In this document: positions 13,801-19,758 of the stretch, in pieces | Numbering within the stretch: position 1 is the stretch's first letter | How the letters are laid out: each line of letters starts with the position of its first letter | Source of the DNA: Ancylobacter oerskovii | Lineage (GTDB): Bacteria; Pseudomonadota; Alphaproteobacteria; Rhizobiales; Xanthobacteraceae | NCBI RefSeq assembly: GCF_018390555.1 | Contig: NZ_JAHBGB010000019.1 | Location: 124,001 to 188,000 of the forward strand | Direction of reading: 5' to 3' | Length of the DNA: 64,000 nt | The notes under the pieces: generated by a model | What the model was told of the DNA's origin: nothing | The model's database searches: none | Seen by the model: the letters and a program-made list of their open reading frames with translations, nothing else | Translations under genes and position numbers: made by a program

Positions 13801-15696
13801 ATGGCCGATCGCCGATCTCTCCCGGTCTCCACCGCCTTTGCCCGTCCCACCCGCCGGCTGGCGCTGGCGCTGATGGGAGGCGTGCTCGCCCTCGGCACGA
13901 TCGGCCTGCCCGATCTCGCCCGCGCCGAGCCGCAATGGCGCCACGGCCTCTCTCTGCTCGGCGAGCCGAAATACCCGGCGGACTTCAAGCGCTTCGACTA
14001 TGTGAACCCCGACGCGCCCAAGGGCGGGCTGCTGCGGCTCTCCGCCAGCGGCACCTTCGATTCGCTCAACGACATCATCCCGCGCGGCAATCCCGCCGCC
14101 GGGCTGTCGCTGATCTACGACACGCTGATGAGCCCCGCCGCCGACGAGGTGGCCACCGAATACGGGCTGATCGCACAATCGGTGCGCTATCCCGACGACT
14201 TCTCCTCGGTCACCTACAAGCTGCGCCCGGAAGCCAAATGGCATGACGGGCAGAAGATAACCCCCGACGACGTGGTGTGGTCCTTCGAGCAGACCATCAG
14301 GAACAACCCGCGCCAGGCCTTCTATTACAGCCACGTCAAATCGGCGGCGAAGACCGGCGACGACGAGGTGACCTTCACCTTCGACCAGGCGGGCAACCGC
14401 GAACTGCCGCAGATCGTCGGCCAGCTGCGGGTGATGCCGAAACACTGGTGGACGGCGAACGGCCCGGACGGCAAGCCGCGCGACATCGCCCAGGGCACGC
14501 TGGAGGTGCCGCTCGGTTCCGGCCCCTACAAGGTGAAGCAGGTGGTGCCCGGCCGCTCGATCTCCTTCGAGCGGGTGAAGGATTATTGGGGCCGCGATCT
14601 GCCGGTGAATGTCGGCACCAATAATTTCGACGAGCAGCGCTTCGAATATTTCCGCGACGACACGGTGGAGCTGGAGGCCTTCAAGGGCGACCAGTATGAT
14701 TTCCGCGTCGAGAGCTCGGCCAAGGACTGGGCCACCGCCTATGACTTCCCGGCGGTGAAGCAGGGCAAGGTGATCCTCGAGGAATTCGCCAACCGCGCCT
14801 CCGGCCAGATGCAGGCCTTCATCCCCAATCTGCGGCGGGCGAAGTTCCAGGACCAGCGGGTGCGCCGGGCGCTCAACTACGCGCTCGACTTCGAGGGCAT
14901 GAACCGCACGCTGTTCTTCGGCCAGTACAAGCGGACCGCCAGCTATTTCCAGAACACCGAGCTCGCCTCCTCCGGCCTGCCCGAGGGCCGCGAGCTGGAG
15001 ATCCTGCAGGGCGTGAAGGACAAGATCCCGGCCAGCGTGTTCACCACGCCCTACCAGAACCCGCCGCAGGGCGGGGAAGAGGAGCGCCGCAGCAACCTGC
15101 GCGAGGCGGCGCGGCTCTTGAAGGAGGCCGGCTGGACGGTGAAGGACCGCAAGCTGGTGAACGCCAGGGGCGAGCCCTTCACCATCGAGATCCTGATCGC
15201 CAATCCCGCCTTCGAGCGCGTCGCGCTGTTCTACAAGCCGGCGCTGGAGCGGCTCGGCATCACCGTGAACGTGCGGCAGGTGGACACCTCGCAATATATC
15301 AACCGGCTGCGCGCCCGCGACTTCGACATGATCCTCACCGGCTGGGGGCAATCGCTGTCGCCGGGCAACGAGCAGCGCGACTTCTGGGGCTCGGCGGCGG
15401 CCGACCGGGAAGGCTCGGCCAATTATGCCGGCATCAAGGATCCCGGCATCGACGCGCTGATCGAGACGGTGATCTATGCCAGGGACCGCGGCGACCTCGT
15501 CGCCGCCACCCACGCGCTCGACCGGGTGCTGCTGGCCTATGATTTCGTGATCCCGACCTGGAACTACCCGAACTACCGCACCGCGCGGTGGAACCGCTTC
15601 GCGCATCCCGAAAAGCTGCCGGAATATTCCTTCGCCTTCCCCGACATCTGGTGGTGGGACGCGCAGAAGGCGGCGCAGACGGGAGGGGCGCCGTGA
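13801..15696 (+). CDS. yejA: Peptide ABC transporter substrate-binding protein, YejA-like (first copy)
   Basis: 631 aa. An N-terminal export signal (RRLALALMGGVLALGTIG, cut near DLARAEP) is followed by an SBP_bac_5 (DppA/OppA class) protein. Typical segments are HGLSLLGEPKYPADFKRFDY, the RPEAKWHDGQKITPDDVVWS block and LGSGPYKVKQV. YejA-type proteins deliver oligopeptides, including peptide-nucleotide antibiotics such as microcin C, to YejBEF. It is the first gene of the operon, after the cycM terminator. Its stop overlaps the GTG of a second YejA-like gene. Confidence 0.9.
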   Translation: MADRRSLPVSTAFARPTRRLALALMGGVLALGTIGLPDLARAEPQWRHGLSLLGEPKYPADFKRFDYVNPDAPKGGLLRLSASGTFDSLNDIIPRGNPAAGLSLIYDTLMSPAADEVATEYGLIAQSVRYPDDFSSVTYKLRPEAKWHDGQKITPDDVVWSFEQTIRNNPRQAFYYSHVKSAAKTGDDEVTFTFDQAGNRELPQIVGQLRVMPKHWWTANGPDGKPRDIAQGTLEVPLGSGPYKVKQVVPGRSISFERVKDYWGRDLPVNVGTNNFDEQRFEYFRDDTVELEAFKGDQYDFRVESSAKDWATAYDFPAVKQGKVILEEFANRASGQMQAFIPNLRRAKFQDQRVRRALNYALDFEGMNRTLFFGQYKRTASYFQNTELASSGLPEGRELEILQGVKDKIPASVFTTPYQNPPQGGEEERRSNLREAARLLKEAGWTVKDRKLVNARGEPFTIEILIANPAFERVALFYKPALERLGITVNVRQVDTSQYINRLRARDFDMILTGWGQSLSPGNEQRDFWGSAAADREGSANYAGIKDPGIDALIETVIYARDRGDLVAATHALDRVLLAYDFVIPTWNYPNYRTARWNRFAHPEKLPEYSFAFPDIWWWDAQKAAQTGGAP

Positions 15697-17687
15697 GCGG
15701 GGGGAGACGACCGGGTGCGTCTCCTCCCCCCTCTCCCCGCGGGGGAGAGGGGGGAGGAGAGGGGGGGCAACATGGTTTGAGCCTGTCGCGGCGGGCCTTG
15801 CTGGCGCTCGGCGCCGGGGCGGGGGCGGCGCTCGCCTTGCCGCGCACCGGCCGGGCGCAGGGGGCAGGGACGGCGGCGGCTCCCGGCGCGGTGCCTGCCG
15901 CCGCGTCGACCTTGCCCGCCGGCGAGCTGCATGGGCTCTCGGCTTTCGGCGACCTGAAATATCCCGCCGATTTCGCGCATTTCGCCTATGTCGATCCCGC
16001 CGCGCCGCGCGGCGGCGGCTTCTCGCAGATCGGGCCGGTGGCCTTCTACAATCAGGCGCTGCAGACCTTCAATTCCTTCAACGGCTACATCCTGCGCGGC
16101 GACGCGGCGCAGGGCGTCGAGCTGACCTTCGACACGCTGATGGCGCGGGCGCTGGACGAGCCGGACGCCGTCTACGGCCTGCTCGCCCGCTCGGTGGCGG
16201 TGAGCGAGGACGGCACGGTCTACCGCTTCCGGCTGCGGCCGCAGGCGCGCTTCCATGACGGCTCGACGCTCGATGCCGAGGACGTCGCCTTCTCGCTGAA
16301 CCTTTTGAAGGCCAAGGGGCACCCGGTGATCCAGCAGGGCCTCGCCGACATGGAGGGGGCGGAGGCCGAGGGCGCCGACATCGCGGTGGTGCGCTTCGCC
16401 AAGGGGCGCGCGCGCGACGTGCCGCTGCTGGCGGCGCAGCTGCCGGTGTTCTCGCGGGCCTATTACGGGGCGAAGAATTTCGAGGAATCGACGCTGGAGC
16501 CGCCGCTCGGCTCCGGCCCCTACAAGGTGGGGCGGTTCGAATCCGGGCGCTATGTCGAATATGGCCGGGTCGAGGACTATTGGGGCGCCGGCCTGCCGGT
16601 GAATGTCGGCGTGAACAATTTCGACACGGTGCGCTTCGAGTATTTCCGCGACCGCGAGGTGGGCTTCGAGGCGTTCAAGGCCGGCACCTACCGCTTCCGC
16701 GAGGAGTTCACCGCCCGCAGCTGGGCCACCGGCTACGACTTCCCTGCCCTCCGGGACGGCCGGGTGAAGCGCGAGGAACTGCCCGACGACACGCCCGGCG
16801 GCGCGCAGGGCTGGTTCCTCAACCTGCGGCGGCCGCAATTCGCCGACCCGAAGCTGCGCGAGGCGCTCTCCTATGCCTTCGACTTCGAGTGGACCAACAA
16901 GAACCTGATGTTCGGCATCTACAAGCGCACGCTGTCCTTCTTCGAGAACTCGCCGCTGAAGGCGCAGGGCCCGGCGGGAGAGGCGGAGACGGCGCTGATC
17001 GACAGGCTGGCCGACATCCTGCCGGCGGAGCAGATCGCGGCACTGAAGGGCGAGCCGTGGTCGCCGCCGCTCTCGGACGGCTCCGGGCAGGACCGGGCGC
17101 TGCTGCGCAAGGCGCAGGAGCTGCTGCGCGCCGGCGGCTTCACCGTGAAGGACGGCAGGCTCACCGACACGGCCGGGCGGGCCATCACCATCGAGTTCCT
17201 CGACGACGAGGGCTCGCTGGAGCGCCACACCGCGCCCTTCATCAAGAACCTCAAGCTGATCGGCATCGAATCGACCTTCCGCCTCGTCGACCCGGCGCAA
17301 TATCAGCGCCGGCTCAACGATTTCGACTTCGACGCCACGGTGCGGCGCTATTCGCTGACCTCGGTGCCGGGGGAATCGTTGCGCAGCTTCTTCGGCTCCA
17401 AGGCGGCGGCGACGCCGGGCTCGCCCAACCTCGCCGGGCTCGCCGACCCGGCGATCGACCGGCTGATCGAGATGGTCATCGCCGCGCAGACGCGCGAGGC
17501 GCTCACCACCGCCTGCCGGGTGCTCGACCGCCGGCTGCGCTGGAACCGCTTCTGGGTGCCGCAATGGTATTCCGGGGTCCATCGCATCGCCTATTGGGAC
17601 GAGTTCGCCTGGCCCTCGGTGCCGCGCCCGACCTATGCCCGCGCCATTCCCGGCATCTGGTCGGCGAAGCTGCGCAAGGCGGGGTGA
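15693..17687 (+). CDS. Peptide ABC transporter substrate-binding protein, YejA-like (second copy)
   Basis: 664 aa from GTG (15693), overlapping the preceding stop. The N-terminus is odd: about 28 Gly/Pro/Ser-rich residues precede the signal LSRRALLALGAGAGAALALP, which carries two arginines and may be Tat- or Sec-type. That stretch is encoded by a 39-bp palindrome, so it is probably inserted sequence. The mature part parallels the first copy block by block (ALSAFGDLKYPADFAHFAY-like start, RLRPQARFHDGSTLDAEDV, LGSGPYKVGRF, VNNFDTVRFEYFRD). Two different binding proteins feeding one YejBEF would widen peptide range. The last codons (SAKLRKAG, stop) recur twice downstream as duplicated DNA. Confidence 0.87.
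   Translation: MSGGRRPGASPPPSPRGGEGGGEGGQHGLSLSRRALLALGAGAGAALALPRTGRAQGAGTAAAPGAVPAAASTLPAGELHGLSAFGDLKYPADFAHFAYVDPAAPRGGGFSQIGPVAFYNQALQTFNSFNGYILRGDAAQGVELTFDTLMARALDEPDAVYGLLARSVAVSEDGTVYRFRLRPQARFHDGSTLDAEDVAFSLNLLKAKGHPVIQQGLADMEGAEAEGADIAVVRFAKGRARDVPLLAAQLPVFSRAYYGAKNFEESTLEPPLGSGPYKVGRFESGRYVEYGRVEDYWGAGLPVNVGVNNFDTVRFEYFRDREVGFEAFKAGTYRFREEFTARSWATGYDFPALRDGRVKREELPDDTPGGAQGWFLNLRRPQFADPKLREALSYAFDFEWTNKNLMFGIYKRTLSFFENSPLKAQGPAGEAETALIDRLADILPAEQIAALKGEPWSPPLSDGSGQDRALLRKAQELLRAGGFTVKDGRLTDTAGRAITIEFLDDEGSLERHTAPFIKNLKLIGIESTFRLVDPAQYQRRLNDFDFDATVRRYSLTSVPGESLRSFFGSKAAATPGSPNLAGLADPAIDRLIEMVIAAQTREALTTACRVLDRRLRWNRFWVPQWYSGVHRIAYWDEFAWPSVPRPTYARAIPGIWSAKLRKAG
15721..15759. repeat. 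39-bp palindrome inside the start of the second yejA
   Basis: Two perfect 18-bp arms (CTCCTCCCCCCTCTCCCC and its complement) around GCG. The core CCCTCTCCCC/GGGGAGAGGG is the same as the terminal hairpin of the composite repeats at 18391, 25361 and 56744. It begins 28 bases after the GTG start and keeps the frame, encoding Pro/Ser- then Gly-rich residues. Confidence 0.9.
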
Positions 17688-18330
17688 GGGAGGCGCCATG
17701 GGGCCGTGCGTTGCGCTGCCGTTCGCTGCCTCGCCGTCCGTTCCGTCGTCATGGCCGGGCTCGGTCCGGTCCTCGACGCCCTGGCGCCGTGGGCACCCGG
17801 CCGAAGGCGTGGATCCCCGGGACGAGCCCGGGGATGACGGGGCTTTATGGGGGATGGAGGGCTCTGTGGGGGATGGCGGGGCTTTATGGGAGACTTTACG
17901 GCGGAGAGGTTCGGCGAAGCTGCGCAAGGCGGGGTGAGGGGCTGCCATGGCGCCGTGCGTTGCGCTGCCGTTCGCTGCCTCGCCGTCCGTTCCGTCGTCA
18001 TGGCCGGGCCTGGTCCGGTCCTCGACGCCCTGGCTCCGTGGGCGCCCGGCCGAAGGCGTGGATCCCCGGGACGAGCCCGGGGATGACGGGGCTCTATGGG
18101 GGATGGAGGGGCTCTATCGGAGGCTCTACGGGGGAGTGGTTCGGCGAAGCTGCGCAAGGCGGGGTGAGGGGGCCGCCATGGGGCCGTGCGTTGCGCTGCC
18201 GTTCGCTGCCTCGCCGTCCGTTCCGTCGTCATGGCCGGGCTTGTCCCGGCCATCCACGTCTTCGGCCGCGCGCGGCGTTTGGAGGAAGTCGCGGCTCCCC
18301 CGGTCAAGCCCGGGGATGACGTCGCTTGAG
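17661..18330. repeat. Three tandem copies of a 230-250 bp unit: yejA2 tail plus intergenic DNA
   Basis: The motif TCGGCGAAGCTGCGCAAGGC with its following GGGGTGAGGG starts at 17661 (the true C-terminal codons and stop of yejA2), 17911 and 18141, giving periods of 250 and 230. Each unit continues with a near-identical block containing CGTTGCGCTGCCGTTCGCTG. Units 1 and 2 then share a dyad-rich stretch GGATCCCCGGGACGAGCCCG; unit 3 diverges after about 100 bases into a related repeat. The copies lie between yejA2 and yejB inside the operon, in a 961-bp stretch with no gene. Confidence 0.9.
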
Positions 18331-18390: not shown

Positions 18391-18523
18391 CTTCTTTCTT
18401 TCCCTCTCCTCGGTGGGTAGAGGTGGCCCGCGCAGAGCGGGCCGGTGAGTGGGCACGCGATCGGGACGCGTTGCTCACCCCTCACCCCACCCCTCTCCCC
18501 CACGGGGAGAGGGAGCAGGTTGC
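18391..18523. repeat. Modular palindromic repeat, copy A (short form)
   Basis: Starts CTTTCTTTCCCTCTCCTC, continues GAGAGG-like then GGTGGCCCGC and GAGCGGGCCGGTGAG, a spacer, and ends CCCTCACCCCACCCC plus the hairpin CTCTCCCCCACGGGGAGAG. Same order and orientation as the element at 25361 but lacking its two internal hairpins. Located just upstream of yejB; the remaining 125 bp to yejB presumably contain its leader. Confidence 0.8.
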
Positions 18524-18648: not shown

Positions 18649-19758
18649 ATGCTCGCCTATATCGTCCGCCGCATCGCGCTGATGGTGCCGACCCTGGTCG
18701 GCATCATGCTGATCTCCTTCGTGGTGGTGCAATTCGCGCCGGGCGGCCCGATCGAGCGGGTCATCGCCCAGTTGACCGGCGAGGGCTCCTCCGCCACCCA
18801 GCGCATTTCCGGCGGCGGCGGCGATTTCGGCGGCGGTGGCGGCAGCGGCGCGGGATCGAGCGACCCGATCTCCTCCAAATATCGCGGCGCGCAGGGGTTG
18901 GACCCCGCCTTCATCAAGCAGCTGGAAGTGCAGTTCGGCTTTGACAAGCCGGCCTATGAGCGTTTCGGCAAGATGCTGTGGGACTATGCCCGCTTCGATT
19001 TCGGCCGCAGCTACTTCCGCGACATCTCGGTGATCGACCTGATCAAGGAGAAGATGCCGGTCTCGATCTCGCTCGGCCTGTGGATGATGCTGATCACCTA
19101 CGCGATCTCGATCCCGCTCGGCATCGCGAAAGCCGTGCGCGACGGCTCGCGCTTCGACGTGTGGACCTCGGCGGTGATCATTATCGGCTACGCCATACCG
19201 AGCTTCCTGTTCGCCATCCTCTTGATCATCCTGTTCGCCGGCGGCTCGTTCTTCTCGATCTTCCCCTTGCGCGGCCTGACCTCCGACAATTGGGACCAGC
19301 TGTCGCTCGGCGCCAAGATCCTCGACTATTTCTGGCACCTCGTGCTGCCGATCACTTCCATGGTGCTCGGCGCCTTCGCCACCATGGCGCTGCTGACCAA
19401 GAACTCGTTCCTCGACGAGATCCGCAAGCAATATGTCGTCACGGCGCGGATGAAGGGCCTGTCGGAACGGGCGGTGCTGTACCGCCATGTGTTCCGCAAC
19501 GCCATGCTGATCATCATCGCCGGTTTTCCCGGCGCCTTCATCGGCGCGTTCTTCTCCGGCTCGCTGCTGATCGAGACCATCTTCTCGCTGGACGGGCTGG
19601 GGCTGCTCGGCTTCGAGAGCGTGCTCAACCGCGACTATCCCGTCGTGTTCGCCAATCTCTACATCTTCTCGCTGGTCGGACTGGTGGTGAACCTCGTCTC
19701 CGATCTCACCTATAGCTGGGTCGATCCGCGCATCGACTTCGAGAAGCGGGACGTGTGA
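18649..19758 (+). CDS. yejB: Peptide ABC transporter permease YejB
   Basis: 369 aa, [20 protein letters not shown] start as in DppB/YejB permeases. One N-terminal membrane segment, a Gly-rich periplasmic loop (about residues 50-75, longer than usual), then five membrane segments. The cytoplasmic EAA-type loop contains [20 protein letters not shown], the contact site for the ATPase. It ends [11 protein letters not shown], typical of YejB. Preceded by GGAGG 13 bases before the ATG; yejE starts 1 base after the stop. Confidence 0.95.

Follow-up and report, generated by a model that had tools for sequence, protein, structure and literature searches.

Introduction

The best-known cases of palindromic inserts in frame come from Rickettsia and Wolbachia, where short palindromic repeats, the Rickettsia palindromic elements (RPEs) and the Wolbachia palindromic element (WPE), are described in frame within genes as well as in intergenic positions, and are tolerated in exposed or dispensable parts of proteins (PMC10969869, PMC2229807, PMC3767692). 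Repetitive extragenic palindromic (REP) sequences tagged with GTAG or CGTC appear in PMC3733652 as high-copy short stem-loops, mostly intergenic, with some intragenic and N-terminal copies, and PMC2759123 places the enterobacterial repeat RU-2 within the signal peptide of YPO1552. Here we describe a perfect palindrome at the start of yejA2, the second of two genes for YejA-like binding proteins in a 64,000-nt stretch of Ancylobacter oerskovii DNA (NZ_JAHBGB010000019.1, positions 124,001 to 188,000 of the forward strand; hereafter the window). We think it likely that a REP-like palindrome entered the n-region of the YejA2 signal peptide, a dispensable segment, and is now translated as part of it.

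Like an RPE or WPE, as those sources portray them, the window palindrome lies in the open frame of a conserved gene and in a presumably dispensable part of the protein. RPEs measure 100–150 bp (PMC3767692) and belong to AT-rich Rickettsiales, whereas the window palindrome is 41 bp, GC-rich and carried by a free-living Ancylobacter. The two are likened by behavior only. The species called 'S. novella' is, we presume, a member of the window's genus. It is among the REP-rich species of PMC3733652, and the window family shares with the GTAG- and CGTC-tagged REPs that its members are short stem-loops of high copy number, some of them within genes. Unlike those REPs, the family is typically without either tag, and its genome gave no match to a Y1 transposase. 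RU-2 helps to form the signal of YPO1552, whereas the palindrome only lengthens the n-region ahead of an intact twin-arginine signal; unlike in the RU-2 case, several repeat families occur at one place in yejA2. By analogy, the palindrome appears to behave like RPEs and intragenic REPs, and we claim no membership in those sequence families. The kind is already known from Rickettsia RPEs and intragenic REPs; this instance of it is new, and its relatives resolve it unusually well. Literature searches on Ancylobacter palindromic repeats, on repeats with signal peptides and on coding palindromes returned no report of it, subscription literature being mostly outside their coverage, and the 15 of 28 papers listed by a text search for the letters of the core appear unrelated from their titles.

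Results

A perfect palindrome in the open frame between the likely yejA2 start and the twin-arginine motif

The palindrome occupies positions 15720–15760 (41 bp, no strand assigned) and consists of two 19-nt arms, 15720–15738 and 15742–15760, that are 100% complementary around a GCG loop; its core, at 15730–15750, is common to a genomic repeat family. A preliminary description of the locus had located it correctly but had given it 18-bp arms and a length of 39 bp. It is the longest perfect short-loop palindrome in the window, the runner-up having arms of 12 bp. When the window was resampled 60 times with a first-order Markov model, the longest arm reached 17 once and was otherwise 13 or less, and folding of the junction RNA beat 200 of 200 dinucleotide shuffles (z -4.72). 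An Rfam search with the palindrome gave only matches far under the families' gathering scores, and a search of plasmid DNA gave none.

Gene yejA1 (13801..15696, + strand; PF00496, 245 bits) ends in a TGA at 15694–15696 that lies inside GTGA, and the GTG at 15693..15695 (+ strand), overlapping that stop, is the likely start of yejA2 (15693..17687, + strand; PF00496, 201.7 bits against a cut-off of 32.4), most relatives having a start codon in the same place. It is preceded by the Shine-Dalgarno (SD)-like GGGAGGGG (15681..15688, + strand), read in the sequence, and a similar G/A-rich stretch precedes the overlap in sister junctions. The palindrome begins 27 nt after the first base of this GTG, placing the hairpin 24 nt past the codon. 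Further downstream, at 15786..15794 (+ strand), is the SRR of a twin-arginine-like signal peptide (LSRRALLALG), which we take to be the twin-arginine translocation (Tat) motif; this [STN]RR motif is aligned in orthologues. The GTG, the palindrome and the motif share one open frame, with 31 codons from GTG to SRR, in agreement with the earlier proposal of an in-frame palindrome adding about 28 residues before the signal. Translation from GTG 15693 would include the residues VSGGRRPGASPPPSPRGGEGGGEGGQHG. The palindrome holds no stop in any of its six frames, so that retention of the frame by the window copy alone is about a one-in-three event.

Repeats with the same core in the genome and genus

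The core of the palindrome, CCTCTCCCC-N3-GGGGAGAGG, is identical to that of the window repeats at 18492, 25519 and 56751; the preliminary description had equated it with the terminal hairpin of composite repeats. In the window genome (G000, an Ancylobacter of 5.48 Mb in 46 contigs) the pattern CCTCTCCCC-N1-5-GGGGAGAGG was found at 171 places and the reversed control pattern at 0; across 30 congeners the core numbers 0–171 copies per genome and is present in 29. From the 171 places 50 were listed, 45 of which were measured for arms and flanks and 44 for reading frame. Arms were 9–13 bp long in 44 of the 45 (the window copy, at 19 bp, being the other) and a CTCACC-type flank lay no more than 45 nt away in 39. 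GTAG was seen within 10 nt of the stem in only 1 of the 45 copies and CGTC at the stem end in only 2, which does not place the family among either type of tagged REP. Around the 44 copies, reading frame was the same and open on both sides once, the same with a stop seven times, and otherwise disposed in 36. A search of G000 for the REP-associated tyrosine (Y1) transposase with PF01797 gave 0 matches, the same search being positive in 5 of 14 control genomes. A mobilizing enzyme for the palindrome family was not found in this search, which covered the Y1 family and G000 only.

Compact junctions in relatives lacking the insert

Gene yejA2 follows yejA1 in all 30 genus genomes, and its frame runs in register across the yejA1 stop in 26. 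The overlapping codon is GTG or ATG in 25 of those 26; in L002 it is GTA, and the start there must therefore lie a few codons later. At junctions without a long insert (L005, reading VSVPFSRR, L006, L015, L018, L021, L022 and L027) the twin arginines come after 5–18 codons. A survey of the family matched 142 of 149 genomes, 7 of them Ancylobacter, and 83 of the other 135 were taken; 2 of these junctions were incomplete and 6 had no recognized yejA1 end, leaving 75 parsed. Register was kept in 69 of the 75, and an ATG, GTG or TTG overlapped the stop in frame in 61. The ancestral arrangement was therefore probably an overlapping start followed by only a short n-region.

The idea that a repeat had inserted in a coding start is borne out by these orthologues, which display the empty site, and by other species that must translate repeats at the same place (see below); insertion in a coding start is thus the likely history. 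Orthologues with the same palindrome in the same place had been named as grounds for rejecting it, and they exist in part: sister L004 (G022) carries a palindrome with an identical core at almost this position, so the insertion may predate the window species. Within the window's clade, P-type sequence (the window palindrome and its composites) is found near the same offset in L001, L003 and L004, with L002 lacking it, so these three may go back to one older insertion. The frame of the core differs between L001 and L004, yet SRR is reached in the same frame in both.

Repeated insertion and frame retention at the junction

Inserts of 77–254 nt were present at the junction in 18 of the 30 genus genomes and, sorted by eye, belong to at least three repeat families: P; E, of about 100 bp and reading SSRPEAKPESRDR...ARDPGSAVPAVRDD; and H, reading HPEEAA.GGRLEG. 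In relatives, inserts of the E and H families start, by eye, with CGTCATCC, which may be compared with the GTAG- and CGTC-tagged REPs. On the YejA2 tree the minimum numbers of gains or losses were 5 for E, 3 for P and 4 for H. Two families are layered at each of L007, L009 and L014, and the P composite of L003 is interrupted by another inverted repeat. At the L014 junction (G023, reverse strand of the locus), coding for the twin-arginine start, TLSRR.VL, stands on both sides of the P-type insert, like a flanking duplication.

Frame was kept at 14 of the 18 insert-bearing junctions, with stops in none of the 14. Merging equal-length sisters left 13 of 16 in frame (binomial p ~1e-4 against one third). 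The yejA2-yejB spacer, which served as a control in the 28 of 30 genus genomes where the yejB start was found, fell into the three frame classes as 7, 9 and 12 of 28 and showed no frame bias. Copies of E elsewhere in the genomes kept the net frame in 8 of 21, and a Fisher test that included the 9 junction E copies gave p 0.003; here the control copies were best matches and not random ones, L148 and L150 had no row of adequate length, and 7 of the 9 junction copies were their own queries in the E table, whilst L008 and L013 were judged from their junctions, the E of L013 being short. Cross-comparison of E in L155 and L011 revealed different inner frames, and L025 leaves and re-enters the common frame within the element. 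Outside the genus, inserts were seen at 10 of the 75 parsed junctions, with L190 excluded for its doubtful yejA1 end. A separate named set includes Alsobacter soli (L096), whose junction holds an inverted repeat in frame; later GTG codons are possible starts there.

Predicted translation of the inserted repeats

In 11 of the 18 insert-bearing genus genomes the 10 codons preceding the twin arginines contain no ATG, GTG or TTG. Five of these (L008, L011, L013, L017 and L023) have the overlapping start as their sole candidate, and outside Ancylobacter the overlapping GTG is the sole start in L202 and L226 (genus g10). For L014 the script had used an earlier TRR; by eye, the nearest start is even further from the true motif. 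Barring an unusual start codon, translation of repeat DNA is therefore unavoidable in these relatives. The other 7 of the 18, the window included, have a candidate start 1–5 codons before the motif. In the window this is a TTG at 15777..15779 (+ strand), 3 codons upstream of SRR, a possible alternative start that would give MSLSRRALL. TTG is a rare start codon. No proven start downstream of the palindrome was found, TTG 15777 standing as a possible one.

A second coding copy in phosphotransferase system enzyme I

One further copy of the core, L240:1535-1555 (G000:C11:295300-298400), lies in frame in a gene for phosphotransferase system (PTS) enzyme I and is the only one of the 44 sampled copies whose frame is open and coding on both sides. 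The protein has domains PF05524, PF00391 and PF02896, and the palindrome falls in the linker before the phosphoenolpyruvate (PEP)-binding domain. Between marker motifs in the mobile domain and in the domain after it, enzyme I of the window genome has 100 residues, compared with 66, 59 and 59 in L270–L272, from the other three species of the window's clade, and 61–88 in 14 further orthologues, so that the L240 linker is longer than all 17 (22 of the 30 genus genomes matched; 4 orthologues gave no measurement). Flexible, dispensable protein segments can evidently accept this palindrome. Both coding copies, the one in yejA2 and L240, are among the 6 of 45 without the usual flank.

The yej locus

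The best solved relatives of the binding proteins are 7z8e for yejA1 (E 1.2e-213) and 5icq, MbnE, for yejA2 (E 1.4e-117). The open reading frame at 18649–19755, downstream of yejA2, scores 527.9 bits against the YejB model, above the cut-off of 445; with a SBP_bac_5 match above its cut-off and a yejB neighbor, yejA2 has the features of a YejA-type gene (solute-binding protein family 5). The gene order is two YejA-like genes, then genes for a YejB-type and a second microcin-C-type permease, and a third YejA-like gene is present in the same genome (G000:C43). Agrobacterium uses YejBEF together with YepA, an alternative binding protein, for muropeptide recycling (PMC9790009). The last 28 nt of yejA2, including the stop, recur without change at 17912 and 18142 as part of consecutive units measuring about 230–250 bp (17662–18169), and the yejA2-yejB spacer is 961 nt in the window against 74–294 nt in 27 other genus genomes.

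Discussion

The n-region of a signal peptide is weakly constrained and should be removed along with the signal peptide. We propose that the window palindrome is, or derives from, one copy of an abundant REP-like palindrome family that inserted downstream of the overlapping yejA2 start and upstream of the twin-arginine motif. As the genes overlap there would be no noncoding spacer, and an insert would become part of the signal-peptide n-region; because that region is weakly constrained and cut off with the signal peptide, inserts that keep the frame would be tolerated. Inserts that break the frame might persist if translation can begin instead at a codon within the repeat or beyond it. In the window genome translation would begin at GTG 15693, the extension would be cleaved off, and its presence would be close to neutral. 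In favor of this account are the empty junctions of genus and family, the recurrent inserts with their frame bias, the unavoidable translation of repeats in several relatives and the second in-frame core in enzyme I.

Several observations weigh against this account. The window copy is without the usual CTCACC-type flank and its arms are unusually long. Its translation is not forced, as TTG 15777 would yield MSLSRRALL. Insert families were sorted by eye, and the frame p values are indicative only, the genomes being related. Within the genus L009, L010, L012 and L026 are out of frame, although an ATG in or past the repeat could restart the gene in all four. Beyond it only 4 of the 10 inserts are open and in frame (L202, L212, L213 and L226, all of genus g10), with L181, L184, L217, L222 and L230 out of frame and L233 containing a stop; the named set has stops in L057 and L101.

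Alternatively, the start may have moved to TTG 15777, in which case an 80-nt spacer would separate the two cistrons and contain the palindrome as a hairpin that is not translated. This TTG stands 3 codons ahead of SRR, a start codon lies no more than 5 codons from the twin arginines in 7 of the 18 genus genomes with inserts, out-of-frame relatives necessarily use later starts, and PMC3733652 argues that many N-terminal REPs are extragenic. We nevertheless regard a moved start as rather unlikely in the window, since the SD-like stretch of the TTG is mostly paired within the hairpin arm in predicted folding, whereas GTG 15693 retains the ancestral register with GGGAGGGG ahead of it. It is extremely improbable that an ordinary repeat copy only appears to have long perfect arms through an error of sequencing or assembly: 19-bp arms are outlying against 9–13 bp in 44 other copies, but the palindrome is internal to a contig of 364,706 bases and the same core recurs at almost the same place in a sister species.

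The hairpin might also serve regulation, fixing how much of each binding protein is made relative to the other, either through hindered coupling of translation or through protection of the upstream mRNA. It is a strong hairpin, and intergenic REPs are considered in PMC3733652 to act on mRNA. The preliminary description had expected it to hinder coupled translation from yejA1; the folding predictions do not support this, as pairing of the GTG and SD was the same with and without the palindrome at two of three lengths and nearly so at the third, the first two bases of GTG 15693 being paired either way. Within the limits of the thermodynamic model this near-identity removes the stated basis of the idea, and in many congeners the junction lacks a palindrome or carries another element. 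We therefore consider a regulatory device very unlikely; a regulatory role is unsupported, and the insertion is probably just tolerated and not a switch. A reading of the hairpin as a terminator was set aside, there being no T-run 3' of it.

According to PMC3733652, N-terminal inserts tend to be dismissed as misannotated starts. With 30 congeners compared, this objection is met in several species, the window itself excepted. It also provides a natural series, from empty sites through one repeat and nested repeats to junctions where the frame is lost and the start has moved, that can be used to probe the freedom of the n-region and how repeats turn into protein. More tentatively, the overlapping start and n-region may form a coding safe harbor for REP-like elements, in which unrelated families repeatedly rewrite the YejA2 N-terminus, in Ancylobacter and in the genus that includes Rhodoplanes elegans, with selection on frame only; exported proteins encoded at gene overlaps may share this property in general.

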